Positions 3,552-19,463 of a DNA stretch of 24,847 nucleotides are shown here, in pieces. Each line of letters begins with the position of its first letter. Within the stretch, counting starts at the first letter, position 1. The stretch is from IMG/VR virus record IMGVR_UViG_3300028920_000256, positions 1-24,847 of that record. One strand, given 5' to 3'. The stretch comes from a virus. The translations under genes were made by a program, and so were the position numbers. The notes under the pieces were generated by a model. The model had not been told where the DNA came from. It was given only the letters and a program-made list of their open reading frames with translations, and did no database searches.

Positions 3552-4223
3552 CTACCTTCCTCCTTTTCTGATCAGTGAATTGACAGTGTACAGTTCCCGA
3601 CAGACTGCGAACCTCCTTTCGTGCAGTGCGCGACATTTGATTGCAACGTCATCGAATCCCTCTGACTCGTCCCTACCAATTCGCAAGATACGAATATCAT
3701 CGACCTCGTAGCCATTGTCTTTGAGCAGCATCCCATACGCCGCCACCTGCGTGAAGTGATCGTCGTACACTGCCTTGCAGGTCTTGAAGTCAACGAGAGT
3801 TTTCTTCCCGTTGAGCATCGCGTAGCAGTCGCAAGTCCCACCGACCTGCAACCGCTCGGAAACCATTTTCATTTCCGACTCGATGACCTGGAAGTCGTTG
3901 CGCTTTTCCCACTCGTAGAATTTGATGACGCAGTTCTCTGCTGCGTCGATGTCGTTCTTCGAGTATTGGTCGAGGTTTGCCTCGATTTTTTTGAGGTAGC
4001 ACTCGATCATGTAGTGGGCGAGCGTTCCGATTTTCGCGAGGGCATCGACGTACTCGCGAACCTTGATTCCCTGTAGGCCGAGGTTGTTCGCCCAAGGAAC
4101 CAAAGCGGGTTTATCCATCACGCCCGTGACGGTTGTTACGCCCGGCACCCGGATGCTGTTAGCATTTTTGTAAATGGTGTGCTGGCGTGCGCCTTTGGCT
4201 GCGTTCTTTTCTGCTTGGTTCAC
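3552..4223 (-). CDS. PD-(D/E)XK (RecB/Cas4-like) nuclease
   Basis: 223 aa, GTG start at 4223 with AAGGAG 6 bases upstream. Motifs in order: GTLAHYMIE (His about 70), a glutamate in VIESEMKM (about 115-117), GGTCDCYAML (Asp about 132), LVDFKT (Asp145, Lys147) and QVAAYGML (Gln159...Tyr163). H, E, GG.D, D.K and Q..Y together mark the RecB/AddB/Cas4 branch of the PD-(D/E)XK fold, a two-metal DNA exonuclease. Its place one base upstream of the ERF gene argues that it resects ends to produce ssDNA for annealing. No iron-sulphur cysteine set like that of true Cas4 is apparent. Reaction polarity is unknown. Confidence 0.88.
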   Translation of the reverse strand: MNQAEKNAAKGARQHTIYKNANSIRVPGVTTVTGVMDKPALVPWANNLGLQGIKVREYVDALAKIGTLAHYMIECYLKKIEANLDQYSKNDIDAAENCVIKFYEWEKRNDFQVIESEMKMVSERLQVGGTCDCYAMLNGKKTLVDFKTCKAVYDDHFTQVAAYGMLLKDNGYEVDDIRILRIGRDESEGFDDVAIKCRALHERRFAVCRELYTVNSLIRKGGR

Positions 4224-4567: not shown

Positions 4568-4984
4568 TTACCTGTTTACGTTTTTTCCAATACTGGCATA
4601 TTCTGCCCTGCGAGTGATTTGGTCGATGTGATTGCAGTGCTGGCACCCCTTGTCAAAGGAATCTTTTTGAAGGGCAGACCTCCACTTGTAATCCTTTCGT
4701 GGAACGAATCTTCCGCAAGCGCAACGACCAAGCCATTTTCGATTGCGTTTACGCTTATTCTTGTTGTCTCCCCTTGTTCCCAAGTAGCCCACAATCGTTA
4801 TTCTGCCGCGTTGAGTACCAATCAAGTTTTTCATGTTTGGCGGCACCGGAACAGTTTGGGGGCGCTTGTCCCAGCATATGCCAGCATCATACTCGGGAAT
4901 ATATTCAAAGCCTTTGCTTGCCACCCTGCCTGCTTTTGAGTCAACAGGAGAAAGCTCTTTGTTTTTGTGTGTAATGGTGTTCAC
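4568..4984 (-). CDS. Hypothetical protein with zinc-ribbon-like core
   Basis: 138 aa, GTG start at 4984 preceded by AAAGGAG. The region NLIGTQRGRITIVGYLG (about 52-68) followed by a basic KNKRKRNRKW stretch, GRCACGRFVPRKDYKW and DKGCQHC resembles the N-terminal zinc-binding module seen in phage AP2/homing-type DNA-binding proteins (RxGrltV...W.CrCdCG...K...CGC). Cys pairs at about 87-89 and 114-117 could bind one metal. Probably a nucleic-acid-binding protein, but no catalytic residues are visible. It follows DUF932 after a hairpin (5010-5037). Confidence 0.55.
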   Translation of the reverse strand: MNTITHKNKELSPVDSKAGRVASKGFEYIPEYDAGICWDKRPQTVPVPPNMKNLIGTQRGRITIVGYLGTRGDNKNKRKRNRKWLGRCACGRFVPRKDYKWRSALQKDSFDKGCQHCNHIDQITRRAEYASIGKNVNR

Positions 4985-4992
4985 GCCCCGAT

Positions 4993-5006
4993 TCTCCTTT
5001 TGTCAA
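4993..5006 (-). repeat. TTGACAAANNGNGA element, leftward copy
   Basis: Reads TTGACAAAAGGAGA on the leftward strand. It is part of a 19 bp stretch, CGATTCTCCTTTTGTCAAG on the + strand, found identically at 7414-7432. Here it also contains the SD of the gene starting at 4984, so conservation could be partly translational. Confidence 0.5.
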
Positions 5007-5009
5007 GCA

Positions 5010-5037
5010 GTGCTGACCCGGCGAACCGAGCCAGCAC
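5010..5037 (-). promoter_or_regulatory. 12-bp intergenic hairpin with TTCG loop
   Basis: Between the DUF932 stop and the next start, the leftward strand forms an uninterrupted 12-pair stem (two G-U pairs) closed by UUCG. In the opposite direction those two pairs would be mismatches, so the RNA form is leftward. No T-run follows, so it is more likely an mRNA-stability or processing element than a terminator. Confidence 0.65.
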
Positions 5038-6835: not shown

Positions 6836-6888
6836 CGGGTTGGTATGTATATGAAGAGAGAAGAGAGAGGCTCCTTTCTGGAAAGGGT

Positions 6889-6982
6889 GAAGTGATTCGG
6901 TAGGATGCTGATCGCTCATCGATTCAACCAACCGTTTCCAGTTCGTATCACGATGCACCACAGCACCCTACTGAACCACTTC
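6889..6982 (-). ncRNA. Folded leader RNA: 22-bp stem with 50-nt apical domain
   Basis: Arms 6889-6910 and 6961-6982 are inverted repeats, 19 of 22 identical. In leftward RNA this gives 19 Watson-Crick pairs, two G-U and one A-C mismatch; in the other direction two of the three become C-A, so the leftward strand is favoured, matching the operon. Inside the 50 nt apical part, CATCG / CGATG pair (6951-6955 with 6917-6921) and AACTG-GAAA-CGGTT makes a GNRA-loop hairpin (6930-6943). It lies about 95 nt upstream of the first leftward start. Fold by eye; function unknown (leader switch, processed sRNA or origin structure). Confidence 0.7.
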
Positions 6983-7316
6983 GTGATTCAGCGTTGACTC
7001 GCGTTGTCGAACGGTCACGACTGCATCCCTGCACTATCGCGCCGCACTCCCGGTTTATCCGTATCCTGCGAGTTGGCGTGCGTCCCGTGTCGGGTTCCGC
7101 TTGCGCTCACTTCGATTCGCTCCACCGTTGCGTCAGTATTTGGTTTTGCTCCTCTCGTTCCGCGCCGCCGATGTTCATGGATCGTTTTGGGCTTTCCCGG
7201 TCAGGGTCTGCGCTGGAGTCACCAATAGGTCGTTCACTCCTGCCTCGCCCTGCCTGCCCTGTCTCTCGTCCTACCTCCTTTTGCTTTGCTGCCCAACCGA
7301 CTTTCGATCTACTCAT

Positions 7317-7417: not shown

Positions 7418-7494
7418 TCTCCTTTTGTCAAGTTTTGGTGCTACTTGACAAAGAGGGAACGGTTTTGAATCGCGTCGTGCTTGACAAAGCGGGA
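7418..7494. repeat. Cluster of three TTGACAAANNGNGA elements
   Basis: One leftward copy (7418-7431, TTGACAAAAGGAGA) and two rightward copies (7445-7458, TTGACAAAGAGGGA; 7481-7494, TTGACAAAGCGGGA), the latter 36 bp apart. The divergent arrangement at the boundary of the two operons suggests -35 regions and/or operator sites for a phage regulator. The leftward copy has an SD-like core but no start codon nearby, so translation does not explain it. Confidence 0.55.
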
Positions 7495-7515: not shown

Positions 7516-7722
7516 ATGCGTGTGTTACTTTTGATTTTGATTGTGTCACTCCTCAACTGCGCGAGCCATCGCAATTCGATAGCGCTTGACAAAATGCGAA
7601 AAGACATTATCGAAGTTCGGCTGCAACTCATCCTGCATGAGGTGTACCTGGAGGAGATGATGGAGAAGGTGAAGGGCATGGAAGAAATGCCGACGAGGTG
7701 TGAAAGGATAAAGGAGGATTGA
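7516..7722 (+). CDS. Small lipoprotein
   Basis: 68 aa from the ATG at 7516. N-terminus MRVLLLILIVSLLNCAS: one Arg, a hydrophobic core and a lipobox LLNC, with Cys14 as the lipidated residue. The mature part of about 54 aa is helical and charged (LDKMRKDIIEVRLQLILHEVYLEEMMEKV). As the first gene of the rightward operon it could be a superinfection-exclusion lipoprotein (as T5 Llp) or an outer-membrane spanin; the proline-rich content of Rz1 proteins is absent. The start has no SD and may be leaderless. An upstream in-frame extension (from 7435) would cover the promoter repeats and is rejected. A third TTGACAAAATGCGA copy lies inside the gene (7586-7599). Confidence 0.6.
   Translation: MRVLLLILIVSLLNCASHRNSIALDKMRKDIIEVRLQLILHEVYLEEMMEKVKGMEEMPTRCERIKED
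7586..7599 (+). repeat. TTGACAAANNGNGA element inside the lipoprotein gene
   Basis: TTGACAAAATGCGA, identical to the two tandem copies at 12965-12998. Encodes part of LDKMRK here, so it may be coincidental, but the 14 of 14 match is notable. Confidence 0.4.
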
Positions 7723-11836: not shown

Positions 11837-12318
11837 TGAGTGGCTTACCGAAAGGCAAACCGATTCTGTGCGTGGACTTTGATGGCGTGATTCACAGCTA
11901 CAAAAGTGGCTGGAAGGGGCCGCGCTGCATACCAGATTGGCCTGTGCCGGGTGCGCTCGAATGGCTGTGGCGTGCGACAAAAGCGTTTGACGTGCAAATC
12001 TACTCAAGCCGTAGTCGATATTTCGGCGGCAGGCGTGCGATGAAAAAATGGCTCAAAACGTGGTATCGCGTTGATTGCGCTTTGCCAAGTGCAAAAAAAG
12101 TAGGAAGTTGGCAGTTTTCGTTTATCGCAGAGACAGCATTCGCTGACCCGTGGGAGGAGGAGATCGAATTCGCAATTCGCAACTTACTGCGGAAGATCAA
12201 ATTCCCAACAGAAAAGCCTGCGGCATTCCTGTCCATAGACGACAGGGGATATCGCTTTACAGGGGAGTTTCCTGTCCTGGAAGAGCTTCTCCTGTTTAAG
12301 CCATGGAACAAGAAATGA
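11836..12318 (+). CDS. HAD-superfamily phosphatase
   Basis: 160 aa. Motif I LCVDFDGV (Asp14 nucleophile, Asp16 acid/base), motif II IYSSRS (Ser at about 57-58), a lysine-rich motif III region (GRRAMKKWLK) and motif IV FLSIDDRG (Asp135-Asp136, metal). No large cap domain fits the length, so it is a capless or minimal-cap type like phage polynucleotide-kinase 3'-phosphatase domains and small nucleotidases. The substrate could be a nucleic-acid 3' end or a nucleotide; not decidable here. TAATG coupling to the upstream gene. Confidence 0.8.
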   Translation: MSGLPKGKPILCVDFDGVIHSYKSGWKGPRCIPDWPVPGALEWLWRATKAFDVQIYSSRSRYFGGRRAMKKWLKTWYRVDCALPSAKKVGSWQFSFIAETAFADPWEEEIEFAIRNLLRKIKFPTEKPAAFLSIDDRGYRFTGEFPVLEELLLFKPWNKK

Positions 12319-12647
12319 CATCGCGCACCGTGCTTCACCTTCCTTTCGTTGTCTGCGTCCACACCGAGGGTGGAGAGTTCGGCGCGATGCCGCTCGGAGC
12401 TTTCCGCGCACTCGACGGTGCGATGGATTACATGCAGTTGGTTCGCCTGCGCCAGATTAAAACGAATCGCATGGATCGCGTGATCGACCTATTCAAGGAT
12501 GGATATCTGTATGCCGTGCATGACTGCATCACAGAGTCACGCGTGCCGCCTGGAAAGTATTACGAGGATCGGCTGGTTGAGCGACTGTTTCTGATCACCG
12601 AGAAGAAGATCGAGACATCTCAAATCTATCGACAGGAGTATGCGTGA
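12315..12647 (+). CDS. Hypothetical 110-aa phage protein
   Basis: Start ATG at 12315 (ATGA overlap with the HAD gene); an ATG at 12303 is possible but neither has a strong SD. Begins MTSRTVLHLPFVVCVHTEGG, then GAMPLGAFRALDGAMDYMQL and VIDLFKDGYLYAVHDCITES, ending in a polar helix. Looks like a small soluble alpha/beta protein; no recognised motif. It is followed by a gene-free 132 bp holding the second folded RNA. Confidence 0.55.
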   Translation: MTSRTVLHLPFVVCVHTEGGEFGAMPLGAFRALDGAMDYMQLVRLRQIKTNRMDRVIDLFKDGYLYAVHDCITESRVPPGKYYEDRLVERLFLITEKKIETSQIYRQEYA

Positions 12648-12665
12648 AGGAGGCCGGGGAATAAA

Positions 12666-12766
12666 CAGGCAGGCGCATAGACAGGGGTGGTAGTAGTGCC
12701 TCTATGACAACACCCAAGGGAGCAGGGTGTCGAGATGGCCATCCCACTACCGCCCCTGGCCTGCTG
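12666..12766 (+). ncRNA. Folded intergenic RNA: composite 21-bp stem with 51-nt apical domain
   Basis: Pairing: 12682-12694 with 12746-12758 (13 pairs, one G-U), extended after a 7-nt bulge by CAG-G-CAGGC (12666-12674) with GCCTGCTG (12759-12766), eight pairs. The apical part (12695-12745) contains ACACCC / GGGTGT (12710-12715 with 12725-12730, 9-nt loop) on a weaker GCCTC / GAG..GGC stem. The G-U pair would be an A-C mismatch on the other strand, so the rightward RNA is the better fold, matching transcription. No T-run follows, so it is not a terminator. Function unknown. Confidence 0.7.
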
Positions 12767-12779
12767 AAAGGGGGAGAGG

Positions 12780-12968
12780 GTGAAGCATTGCACTTGTGAC
12801 CTGTGCCACATGAGCCGCCAATGGAATCAAGCTGTGGGCAAGAAGAATATCAAGCGCATGTGCCAGCTTTACGATGAGGTGTGGGAACGCATGGCGAATG
12901 CCGAGACTGAGTTGGCCATGGAAGACTTGAAGCGAAAGAAGGAGGCAGGGGAGCGAAAGGGGAGTTGA
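12780..12968 (+). CDS. Small phage protein with CxxC knuckle
   Basis: 62 aa, GTG start at 12780 right after GGGGGAGAGG. N-terminus MKHCTCDLCHMSRQW has three Cys plus His in six residues of spacing, then two charged helices (KKNIKRMCQLYDEVWERM, NAETELAMEDLKRKKEAGERK). The CDLC.MSR pattern recurs in small phage proteins that I cannot name. The end overlaps the first TTGACAAA element by a few bases. Confidence 0.55.
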   Translation: MKHCTCDLCHMSRQWNQAVGKKNIKRMCQLYDEVWERMANAETELAMEDLKRKKEAGERKGS

Positions 12969-13013
12969 CAAAATGCGACAGTGCTTGACAAAATGCGAGT
13001 CTCATTGTAAGTT
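12965..13013 (+). promoter_or_regulatory. Tandem TTGACAAAATGCGA elements and promoter
   Basis: Two identical 14-mers start 20 bp apart (12965 and 12985). The second TTGACA is followed at 17 bp by TAAGTT (13008-13013), preceded by TTG, the same layout as 7481-7509 (TACGTT). Predicted RNA start is about 13020, 3 bp before the ATG of the next gene. One copy could serve as -35 and the other as operator. It marks a new transcript for the envelope/portal section. Confidence 0.55.
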
Positions 13014-13022
13014 AGGAAGCGT

Positions 13023-13430
13023 ATGAACAAACAGGTAATCTTCGTTTGCGAGACATGCGGCCACGGTGCCACCAGCATGTCCGACCTCTGCCCTCACCTC
13101 AAAGCAAAGTATGATCGCCACGTTCAGCGGAAAGCTGCTCCACAAAAGGCGAACCTCACACTGTTCAAATTCAACGACGAGATCAAAAAGGCTGTGCGCA
13201 AGATGAAGCACCTCGGTCACGACGACATCTGCTTCGTGATGAATCGCACGGCAAAGATCAAGCTCGGTGACGGCTTCACGAACGTGCCGAGGTTTTGCGT
13301 TGACCCGGAGGGAGAGAGGTATCGCGGCATTCGCTTGTTTTTCGATCCACTGATTCCGGTTGAGCGTGCCGGATTTTTCTTTCCTTATGATTTACTGATA
13401 GAGAGAGCGAGGCAGCAGGGCCATGCATGA
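13023..13430 (+). CDS. Zinc-finger-like hypothetical protein
   Basis: 135 aa, ATG at 13023 with AGGA 5 bases upstream. N-terminus VIFVCETCGHGATSMSDLCPHLKAKYDRHV: CxxC...CxxH, a plausible zinc finger. Then a basic helix (NDEIKKAVRKMKHLGHDDI) and a beta-rich C-terminal part. As the first gene after a promoter with operator-like repeats, and with a finger followed by a basic helix, it could be a regulator; this is inference only. Confidence 0.55.
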   Translation: MNKQVIFVCETCGHGATSMSDLCPHLKAKYDRHVQRKAAPQKANLTLFKFNDEIKKAVRKMKHLGHDDICFVMNRTAKIKLGDGFTNVPRFCVDPEGERYRGIRLFFDPLIPVERAGFFFPYDLLIERARQQGHA

Positions 13431-14227: not shown

Positions 14228-15360
14228 TGTTCTACGACGTTCGCACATCGAATCCGACACCTTGGTACGCGATGAATTCCCGCGAGAACATCGCGGGGCT
14301 TGCGCTGTGCCTGCTGATGGTTGTGGCGATCTGCCCGTACCGTCCAGGCTATGACATGGAGAAGATGCGTGCGACGATCATCTCTCTGACCGGGCTTGCG
14401 GCCATTGCTGTACTCCTGGTGCGCGGAGAGTTTCCTGCGACATCGTTGGTGTTCGCGCCATTCTTCGGATACGTTGTCGTGCGTGCGCTTTTCAGCTTCA
14501 CACCAGGATACACATGGTATGAGATTGCGCGATACGTTGGCATCTACGGGCTGATTGTGTATGCGGCAAGATGCCCTCGGCCTTGGGTTGCGATCTCCAT
14601 CGTGCTGTGTGCCGTCGTTCAGTTTGTGGTGAAGGAGTTTGAGTTGATAAAGTTCCAGCACCAGTTTACCAATCTTGGATACGGAACTGTGCGCAATCTG
14701 ATCCGGTACGCTACGATCATGTTTGCCGCAGGCATCGCATCGTTCGCATTCGTGAGCAAGCAACGGCCTAAGTGGGCCATCGTTGTTTTGTGCGCAGTCG
14801 GAGCTTACGCGACGTATCAAGCAGTCATCGTCAGGAGTCACACGCTGATCGCAGTCTGTGGGCTGACGGCACTGATCGTCGTTGTGTTTTTCGTAAAGGG
14901 ATGGGTCGTTCGCGTGGTGATACTGGCGGCGTGCGTTGCATCCATTATGTTCTCCAGCAAAATGAACTGGGCTGTAGCGTCCGGTGGAGCCAAAGCCTAC
15001 ACGCTTGACAAAGTGCGAGAACCTCTGTGGCAGACTCTCGCTGATGAGGCGACGCTGATGGGCCGCGGCCTTGGTGGATGGGAACTCCTGGCCGGGTCGC
15101 TTGGACATGAGGGTGCCGGGCATCCGCATAACAGCATTGGGAAAATGTTGTTCGAGCTTGGCGTTCCTGGGGTAACACTTTTTCTCCTGGGCGTAACACT
15201 GATGGTTGTGTTTGTCTGCGTGTGGGGCAAAGAGGCAGCATGGTTTGCCGTTGGTGCAGGCATGGTTCTTGTTGCGACAACCACAAACGATCTGTTTGGC
15301 TATAACGACGTAGTGATGATGTGGAGTCTGCTGACCGGAGGTGCGCTCCATGTTTCGTGA
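14227..15360 (+). CDS. O-antigen polymerase/ligase-like (Wzy_C/WaaL) membrane protein
   Basis: 377 aa with about 11 TM helices (approx. 22-40, 48-65, 69-89, 97-113, 119-134, 161-178, 183-203, 207-224, 226-245, 303-322, 327-347). A long periplasmic loop before the last helices contains REPLWQTLADEATLMGRGLGGW and HPHNSIGKMLFELGVPG: the R...W, G.G..W and H.HN...E.G..G signature of the Wzy_C/WaaL family, inverting glycosyl-lipid polymerases and ligases of the inner membrane. In temperate phages such enzymes (e.g. D3 Wzy-beta) convert the host O antigen and block superinfection. Between small envelope proteins and the portal gene this is unusual. A TTGACAAAGTGCGA copy lies at 15005. Confidence 0.75.
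   Translation: MFYDVRTSNPTPWYAMNSRENIAGLALCLLMVVAICPYRPGYDMEKMRATIISLTGLAAIAVLLVRGEFPATSLVFAPFFGYVVVRALFSFTPGYTWYEIARYVGIYGLIVYAARCPRPWVAISIVLCAVVQFVVKEFELIKFQHQFTNLGYGTVRNLIRYATIMFAAGIASFAFVSKQRPKWAIVVLCAVGAYATYQAVIVRSHTLIAVCGLTALIVVVFFVKGWVVRVVILAACVASIMFSSKMNWAVASGGAKAYTLDKVREPLWQTLADEATLMGRGLGGWELLAGSLGHEGAGHPHNSIGKMLFELGVPGVTLFLLGVTLMVVFVCVWGKEAAWFAVGAGMVLVATTTNDLFGYNDVVMMWSLLTGGALHVS
15005..15018 (+). repeat. TTGACAAANNGNGA element inside the Wzy-like gene
   Basis: TTGACAAAGTGCGA. It encodes LDKVRE at the start of the conserved periplasmic loop. No -10 follows; may be coincidental, but it fits the consensus fully. Confidence 0.35.
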
Positions 15361-15682: not shown

Positions 15683-17497
15683 ATGTTCAAACCCAATGAA
15701 GAGAACGTCAAGAAAGCTTTCGAGTACGTGAAGGAGAACGTAACGAACTTCTTCAACTCGCAGGAATACAGCAATTACTATGATCGGTTTGCTCGACGGC
15801 TCAAGGCGTATCGCAGGCAGCATGACACCAATGCGCCGAAGTGGAGAAGCAAGCTGCACTTCGCCACGTTCTTCCTGGGCTGCAAGGCACTCGACATCGC
15901 TTTTAAGAAGTCGCACCGCAACGACCCGTTCATCACCATTGCCCTGGAGAACTCGAAGACTGCCGACCCTTCCGCTATCGAGAAGGCCCGGCTCGCACAT
16001 TACGACATCAATCACGATCTGTACATCAGCAATTTCTCCAGCGTGCTTGACCGCATGTACTGGTACGTCGAGATGGTCGGCGGGTGCGTCGGCAGAGAGT
16101 ACGTGTACAGCGACCAAGTGCAGTCCGTTCGCAGAGAGCGGAAGGAAGACATGTACGGATTCGATCTCGGTGCGCGTGAGGTGCAGGACGTTGTTCGCAA
16201 GGAACACACGAAGACCGATCTCATCCACCCGCTCAACTATGCACACAACCTGACAAAGCCCGACTTCCTCAATAGCCGTTGGGGCGCATGTCGTTTCGAG
16301 GTGCCGCCTGTCGAGATTTACAAGATGCTGAAGAACAAGGACTACTATCAGCCCGGCGTGAAGAAGCTCATCGACGAGATCGAGAAGTCCGACCCGAAGA
16401 AGTCTTGGACGATTGGTAAGGACACGTTTTACGCGGAGTCCTACGACAACAAAAGCGGCGCGATCAATTCGTTGGTGCTTTACGAATACACTGGCGACTT
16501 CAACTACAAAGGCAACTACGACGACAACTCGCTGTACTACATGCTCTACAGCAAAAGCTACGACTGTGTCCTGTCGATTCGGAAGAGCCAGTTCCCGCGC
16601 AAGCATCTGTGGAAGCTCGCAGTGTATCAAGACCCGTATGGGCCTTTCCAGGTTGGGCCGTGTGACTCCCTGCTGCCGCTGAATCTATGGAAGAACTCAA
16701 CGGTCAACCAGTACAACGATTATGCGAACGCGACGCTGAAATACATGTGGGAGGTTGACCCGGAGAAGATCACAGGTGGACTGAACTCCCTCGTCAACGG
16801 CCTGCCGGGCGGCTTGATCCTGGCCGAGCCGGGGCAGTTGGGTCAGACCATGAAGTCGCTGAATCGCGACAGGAGCAGCCTGCCGCCCGTCGGCGACATT
16901 ATGGACATCCTTGAGAAAGAAATCGAGAGCGTAGGCCCGTCAAGTAACCTTCGGGGCAAGGAATCGGGCCAACTTAATGATACGGCGACAGGGATCGGCC
17001 TCATGGCGCAGCGAGAGGACGACCAGATCGCAGCCCTGCAAGACGAGTGCGATGACGGGATCGTGGATGCGATCCAGTTGAAGATTCAGAACCGTCAGAA
17101 GTTTATGACGCAGCCCGTCGTCGGAGAGATGGAAGGTAACAGCGACTCTGATGTCGCGCCGATCCAGTACTTCCCTTGGGAACTGGCCGGGCAGGAATTT
17201 GTCGCAAAGGTGCGGCGCGAAACGTCCGACATCCAGAGCGGAAAGTACATGAGCTTTCTCAAACTGATCGGTGGACTCATGGCCGCGGGCGTTGGCACAC
17301 CTCAAGCACTTGGAAGACTCGCAAAGAAGGTCGGTGAGTCGATGGGCATTGATGAGGTGGACGAGTTGGGCTTGGACAATCCGATGCCGCCGCAGATTCC
17401 AGGCGGGCCGCAGGGTGCTGCGCCGCAGGGTGGATCGCCAAACTTGAGCGGGCCGGGCCTGCCCGAAGCAGGAGGTGCTGGTGCTGCGATGGCTTGA
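15683..17497 (+). CDS. Portal protein
   Basis: 604 aa, starting right after the previous stop with GAGG 6 bases upstream. Seen: N-terminal YYDRFARRLKAYRRQHD, the clip/stem-like SSVLDRMYWYVEMVGG, HPLNYAHNLTKPDFLNSRWGACRFEV (typical portal passage naming coordinates of an Asp/Asn pocket), KHLWKLAVYQDPYGPFQVGP, LPLNLWKNSTVNQYND, LVNGLPGGLILAEPG, SGQLNDTATGIGLMAQ and a long helix. The C-terminus is a disordered Pro/Gly tail (PGGPQGAAPQGG). Twelve copies form the DNA channel docked by terminase. Length and order (after terL, before scaffold and capsid) fit podovirus-type portals. No identifiable sub-family. Confidence 0.85.
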   Translation: MFKPNEENVKKAFEYVKENVTNFFNSQEYSNYYDRFARRLKAYRRQHDTNAPKWRSKLHFATFFLGCKALDIAFKKSHRNDPFITIALENSKTADPSAIEKARLAHYDINHDLYISNFSSVLDRMYWYVEMVGGCVGREYVYSDQVQSVRRERKEDMYGFDLGAREVQDVVRKEHTKTDLIHPLNYAHNLTKPDFLNSRWGACRFEVPPVEIYKMLKNKDYYQPGVKKLIDEIEKSDPKKSWTIGKDTFYAESYDNKSGAINSLVLYEYTGDFNYKGNYDDNSLYYMLYSKSYDCVLSIRKSQFPRKHLWKLAVYQDPYGPFQVGPCDSLLPLNLWKNSTVNQYNDYANATLKYMWEVDPEKITGGLNSLVNGLPGGLILAEPGQLGQTMKSLNRDRSSLPPVGDIMDILEKEIESVGPSSNLRGKESGQLNDTATGIGLMAQREDDQIAALQDECDDGIVDAIQLKIQNRQKFMTQPVVGEMEGNSDSDVAPIQYFPWELAGQEFVAKVRRETSDIQSGKYMSFLKLIGGLMAAGVGTPQALGRLAKKVGESMGIDEVDELGLDNPMPPQIPGGPQGAAPQGGSPNLSGPGLPEAGGAGAAMA

Positions 17498-18283: not shown

Positions 18284-18310
18284 ACAAAATAACCGGGTTC
18301 CCTCGCATTG

Positions 18311-18371
18311 GCCCCGTCGTTGGAGCAGGACTTACCTCCTTTCACCTGCTCCGCGATGGGGCTTTTTGTTT
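18311..18371 (+). terminator. Strong bipartite hairpin with T-run; loop carries an anti-SD sequence
   Basis: Outer stem GCCCCGTCG / CGATGGGGC (nine pairs, one G-U) and inner stem GGAGCAGG / CCTGCTCC (eight pairs), followed by CTTTTTGTTTG: a Rho-independent terminator in the direction of the genes. The 15-nt loop contains ACCTCCTTTC, identical to the anti-SD end of many 16S rRNAs. It sits inside the virion gene string, 28 bp before the scaffold start, and may be leaky, setting the ratio of portal to scaffold/capsid. No clear promoter is seen between it and the scaffold gene. Confidence 0.75.
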
Positions 18372-18398: not shown

Positions 18399-19463
18399 AT
18401 GGCAGAAGAAACCACTCAATCAACCGACACAGGTACAAGCACGCCGACAGAACCTGTCGCAAACGCCGGGACACAGATGGACTCGTCCTCTGCGGCCAAG
18501 TTGCAAGGTGCGTCGAGCCAAGGTGGAATACCTGACGGTGGGAGTCAGTCGAGTCAGGATGAAGGTAAGCCCGGAGCGGAAGCCGACAAGGCAAAGCCGC
18601 CGAAGGAACCTGCCGCAGACGCGGGTGACAAGAAGGTCATCGACCTTGATCCCAACGAGAAGAAGTGGCTCGAAAGCAAGAACCTGAGTCTCGACGGGTT
18701 GGACGTTTCAAGCGAGGCTGTGCGAACGCTCATCAAGAATGCGCGGAACGCAGAGTCAAAAATGAATGAGGCGATCAACAAGGCCAAGGCGCAGGAAGTT
18801 GCCGATGCTGCCAGGAATGTTCCGAATCCTGCCGCCACGAAAGAGGAGCGCAAGACTGAACTCGATCTCTTCGAGGAGAGGTTCGAGGCCACGCTGGACA
18901 ATGCACTCTTCGTGAATGGCGTGCAGTCCATAGAGGAGCTTGCGAAGGTCAATCCCGATGCAGCCAGAAACCTCGACAGTATCTACATGCGCGAACGCCA
19001 AAAAGCTTGGGAAGCGGAGAAGGATGCGCAGGAGAGGATTAAGGCTGAAGCGAAAAAGGTCGAGCAGGACAAGGTGCGCTTCAAGACCGAGATGGACAAC
19101 GCCGAGAGGCAGATGAATGAAAACCTCATCTCCCTCAAAGCCAAAGAGCCAGAGGTCGAGGCACACATGAAGAACTCCGGTGCAGATGCTGTTCTGCAAA
19201 AGATCGAAGCAGATGCTGCGTGGCCAAAAGCTTTTGTCTTGAGCAACCCGGAGATGCTCTCCTGGTTCGCGAAAGCTTCCAAGGCCATCACCATGATGAA
19301 CGACATGCCGAAGCTCGAAGAGAAGTGGCGTGCCGATTACGAGAAGCAGCTTGCAGAGCAGGCAACGGCAAAGCTCACGCCTGCGGATGCTGGTGGTGCC
19401 GACACTACCAAAAGCCGCATGGCGTCACGTGTTCAACAAATCGCGGCGAACCGACGGTTCTGA
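18399..19463 (+). CDS. Scaffolding protein (putative)
   Basis: 354 aa from the ATG at 18399, with AAGGAG 7 bases upstream. N-terminal 80 residues are disordered and Ser/Thr/Gly-rich (TQSTDTGTSTPTEPV), then KAKPPKEPAADAG and a long, highly charged alpha-helical/coiled-coil body with Lys/Glu/Ala heptads (KAWEAEKDAQERIKAEAKKV, DNAERQMNENLISLKAKEPE), ending in a basic SRMASRVQQIAANRRF tail. Charge pattern, coil, basic C-terminus and the position immediately before the major capsid gene are those of phage scaffolds. It would direct procapsid assembly and then leave. No protease domain is visible. Confidence 0.75.
   Translation: MAEETTQSTDTGTSTPTEPVANAGTQMDSSSAAKLQGASSQGGIPDGGSQSSQDEGKPGAEADKAKPPKEPAADAGDKKVIDLDPNEKKWLESKNLSLDGLDVSSEAVRTLIKNARNAESKMNEAINKAKAQEVADAARNVPNPAATKEERKTELDLFEERFEATLDNALFVNGVQSIEELAKVNPDAARNLDSIYMRERQKAWEAEKDAQERIKAEAKKVEQDKVRFKTEMDNAERQMNENLISLKAKEPEVEAHMKNSGADAVLQKIEADAAWPKAFVLSNPEMLSWFAKASKAITMMNDMPKLEEKWRADYEKQLAEQATAKLTPADAGGADTTKSRMASRVQQIAANRRF

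Follow-up and report, generated by a model that had tools for sequence, protein, structure and literature searches.

Between two rightward genes of an uncultured tailed phage lies a stretch of 101 nt (positions 12666-12766) that is predicted to fold into a long hairpin, which raises the question of what such a structure does in a run of genes with little space between its members. The window analysed here spans an entire virus record, 24,847 bases in length (IMG/VR IMGVR_UViG_3300028920_000256). Its leftward block encodes a single-strand binding protein, an Erf-like annealing protein and a DUF932 protein, while the rightward block encodes the terminase subunits, the major head protein and a head closure protein. 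The terminase is the sole protein with recognisable relatives at a useful length, sharing 34-37% identity with proteins encoded on viral contigs and in a single archaeal metagenome-assembled genome, and at most about 40% with those of named phages. In the viral loci that carry these relatives, the terminase is also the only protein matching this phage. Within the collections searched, the phage is effectively an orphan.

The intergenic position of the hairpin, claimed in the earlier note, could be confirmed, as the element occupies 101 nt of a 132-nt gap (12648-12779, plus strand). The gene upstream (12303-12647, plus strand, 114 aa) has a positive codon score and no match in PHROGs, Pfam, NCBIfam or PDB. 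The gene downstream (12780-12968, plus strand) starts with GTG and encodes a 62-aa Cys-containing protein with a CxCxxC near its N-terminus. Most junctions in the rightward run overlap, and nearly all others besides the hairpin gap overlap or are shorter than 60 nt. The gap is the second largest of this run, surpassed only by one of 337 nt that precedes the gene at 18399. Codon scores are negative in each of the six frames of 12649-12779 (-0.31 to -0.66) and fall below the lowest 43-codon window among the phage's confident genes (-0.286). The gap is non-coding, the six-frame scores ruling out a coding remnant, and protein-coding potential through the element, which the earlier note had named as speaking against a structured RNA, is absent. 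A purine-rich, Shine-Dalgarno-like stretch, AAAGGGGGAG (12767-12776, plus strand), follows directly 3′ of the hairpin. The search for promoter-like sites detected none in the gap, and none near the hairpin on either strand.

In the predicted plus-strand fold, the core of the hairpin is a middle stem of 13 bp with one U-G pair, formed by the left arm CAGGGGTGGTAGT (12682-12694) and the right arm ACTACCGCCCCTG (12746-12758), which stand 51 nt apart. This stem is present exactly as first described; it was also recovered by the stem count, and its pair probability is about 1.0 in every context computed. It encloses an inner hairpin (12710-12730) with a 9-nt loop and the expected 6-bp arms, ACACCC/GGGTGT (12710-12715/12725-12730), whose outer pairs, however, compete with an alternative pairing on the plus strand (pair probability 0.29-0.97). 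Beyond a 7-nt bulge, GCATAGA (12675-12681), which had likewise been described correctly, lies the outer stem with the arms GGCAGGC (12668-12674) and GCCTGCT (12759-12765). Instead of the supposed 8 bp, it comprises 7 pairs, six of them Watson-Crick and one G-U. In native plus-strand contexts its pair probability is only 0.04-0.56, with neighbouring sequence competing. For an RNase III-type helix of roughly two turns this means that 13 bp are certain, while 20 bp are reached only with the outer stem formed. What had been presented as one large folded RNA is a compact non-coding hairpin, its status as a single element not being established with an outer stem that is unstable in its native context.

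The middle stem is the only one in the window with at least 13 bp, at most one G-U pair and a loop of up to 80, and 60 dinucleotide shuffles of the whole window contained 0.13 such stems on average. The segment 12666-12766 reached a minimum free energy of -50.1 on the plus strand (z -3.5) and of -52.5 on the minus strand (z -4.3); in a larger run, 4 and 2 of 1000 shuffles, respectively, were as good. As these coordinates had been picked after the fold was seen, the best-folding 101-nt stretch of the 132-nt gap was also compared with the best segment in shuffles of the gap, of which none out of 200 was as good on either strand. The plus-strand z, however, weakens with width, to -1.4 at 132-141 nt (the gap) and to -0.9 at 221 nt. 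The compact stem-loop is therefore significant, whereas the folding of the wider region is not out of the ordinary. The comparison with shuffled controls that the earlier note had called for thus speaks for the exact element and the best segment, and not for wider segments. Two folds located elsewhere in the window were recorded in their own right. Between the leftward and rightward blocks, the minus strand of 6870-7000 forms a longer hairpin with a stem of about 20 pairs (z -5.5), and the plus strand of 3890-4030 folds very strongly (z -6.2) opposite the leftward gene 3552-4223, the product of which shows a weak match to a Cas4-like nuclease.

The explanation we favour, at a probability of roughly 0.4, is a cis-acting intercistronic hairpin that would segment or stabilise the rightward polycistronic mRNA, by analogy with known processing sites. 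It is favoured because the best 101-nt fold in the gap beats the shuffles, because the element ranks third on each strand among non-overlapping segments after correction for G + C content and holds the only stem of its length, because a non-coding gap of this size lies in an otherwise tight run, and because the gap lacks both a T-run and a promoter-like site. It is weakened by the slightly better fold of the minus strand, by the unexceptional wider segments and by the lack of relatives. We infer that the hairpin is transcribed within the rightward mRNA, in the interval from the end of one gene at 12647 to the start of the next at 12780, and is acted upon there by nucleases. The stable middle stem holds the inner hairpin, and the weaker outer stem can stack across the bulge, giving up to about 20 bp or close to two helical turns. 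Together they would provide a cut site for a double-strand-specific nuclease. Alternatively, the hairpin might act as a barrier to exonucleases and protect the upstream 3′ end. The outcome, and with it any effect on expression, would be that mRNA segments are separated and stabilised.

Both phage and bacterial precedents exist for this mode of action. In T7, RNase III cuts the early mRNA into mono- and dicistronic mRNAs (PMC4858673). Like the T7 RNase III hairpins (e.g., R1.1), the present element lies in a phage polycistronic run, lacks a terminator T-run and would comprise about two helical turns if its outer and middle stems stack. It differs, however, in its greater size (101 nt, 26 named pairs) and in the weakness of the outer stem in the native context; the likeness is one of analogy. 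In E. coli, intergenic cuts in ahpC-ahpF and pflB-pflA leave stabilised messages, one part of the transcript gaining stability, and RNase III does not depend on a fixed target sequence (PMC5371410). These sites, too, lie between co-directional genes. The pflB-pflA site is close to a downstream promoter (PMC5371410), whereas here the promoter lies beyond the next gene.

Among the alternatives, it appears rather unlikely, and is at the same time a serious possibility, that the element has no selected function and represents a leftover or drifting intergenic stretch that folds by chance. A 13-bp stem of this kind turns up in about one in eight shuffled windows, the z values of the full gap and of wider segments are unexceptional, and folds of equal or greater strength occur elsewhere in the window, segments within genes attaining similar values. 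Moreover, no homologue or second copy by which conservation could be shown was found with DNA, stem patterns, neighbouring proteins or a covariance model. The exact stem-arm pattern gave 10 matches in viral contigs, all rejected as none has a similar fold or similar flanks, and both arms with a variable gap gave zero matches. Searches with the proteins encoded at 12303-12647, 13023-13430 and 15683-17497 (a large protein) and with the major head protein yielded no relatives. When run against the window and the terminase-related loci, a covariance model built from the single element, as the earlier note had suggested, recovered just the element itself and its reverse strand; six viral records that are related or carry the motif gave no match. 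Rfam gave no match in the window at or above the gathering score (best sub-threshold match: IMES-2, 15.2 vs. 54.7 bits). Against a chance fold stand the best gap segment, which beats 200 of 200 shuffles, and a genome that is compact elsewhere and leaves little intergenic space in this run.

An unlikely explanation is that the hairpin controls translation of the gene at 12780, whose start codon lies about 14 nt downstream of the hairpin end. The hairpin would hold its C-rich right arm (GCCCCT) off the Shine-Dalgarno-like stretch, and melting or binding would switch ribosome access. In line with this, positions 12767-12776 have a predicted accessibility of 0.48-0.76 in the presence of the hairpin, compared to 0.40-0.46 without the left arm. 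This effect is, however, small and context-dependent, the start codon itself is partly paired, the accessibility falls within the 0.13-0.69 computed for other genes of the phage, and the hairpin matches no known riboswitch or other RNA family.

Less likely still is a site of transcription termination or pausing that lacks a T-run and is perhaps assisted by Rho; it would lower transcription before the next promoter. As in an intrinsic (Rho-independent) terminator, a long G + C-rich hairpin lies between genes, here near a likely boundary of transcription units, and a promoter repeat follows further on. In contrast to such terminators, the middle-stem arms are 51 nt apart and the sequence after 12766, AAAGGGGGAGAGGG, contains no T-run; the hairpin is also missing from the terminator scan, so that the earlier note was right in not regarding it as a normal terminator. 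The lack of a T-run makes termination less likely because the same phage has such a hairpin elsewhere: in the 337-nt gap before the gene at 18399, a long two-part hairpin (18310-18369) is followed by TTTTTGTTTG and resembles an intrinsic terminator placed upstream of the head genes. Termination at the hairpin would, furthermore, separate the gene 12780-12968 from the upstream transcript, and no promoter-like site was detected for this gene.

The promoter repeat in question consists of tandem copies of TTGACAAAATGCGA at 12965 and 12985 (12965-13013, plus strand), a probable promoter that probably serves the gene at 13023. Eight copies of its motif, TTGACAAANNGNGA, are present in the window, compared to 0.03 expected (4993-5006 and 7418-7431 on the minus strand; 7445-7458, 7481-7494, 7586-7599, 12965-12978, 12985-12998 and 15005-15018), with several copies clustered at likely promoters. 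The copies at 7481 and 12985 have in common TTGACA, 17 nt and TA(C/A)GTT. The tandem promoter or operator that the hairpin was said to precede is thus real, but it is not adjacent; it begins about 200 nt downstream, overlapping the end of the 62-aa gene in between. Similar tandem (C)TTGACAAAnAGYGA repeats occur in three viral contigs without any credible protein match to this phage, namely L018 (near 2614-2648), L019 (near 4980-5024) and L021 (7724-7768). In L021, they sit between a 579-aa and a 732-aa protein resembling terminase and portal; a weak protein match to this contig falls inside the terminase-like protein and was discarded.

The strand of the element bears on a further alternative, namely an antisense RNA read from the minus strand, a small RNA in its own right or a site acting at the DNA level, which we consider distinctly improbable. 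Folding predictions favour the minus strand by 2.4 kcal/mol and give it a stabler outer stem in context, although the middle-stem U-G becomes an A-C mismatch there, one of two plus-strand G-U pairs so changed. The G-U polarity therefore favours the plus strand only weakly and does not fix the coding strand as had been argued, the direction of the flanking genes being the better argument. Against this group of readings speak the two mismatches, the lack of a promoter-like site nearby on either strand, and arms that stand 51 nt apart, unlike those of a dimer-binding operator. A lineage-specific, previously undescribed phage RNA element, either a structured leader or a processed small RNA, is very improbable, and a retron-like RNA was dropped as neither a reverse transcriptase nor a defence system was recognised next to the hairpin.

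Although real, the hairpin of this orphan phage is an element of a fairly ordinary kind. Should it be a site of mRNA processing or stabilisation, it would mark where the phage splits its rightward mRNA into separately regulated segments. Such a segmentation, if true, would help to read the gene expression of this phage, following a known pattern that by itself raises no new question.
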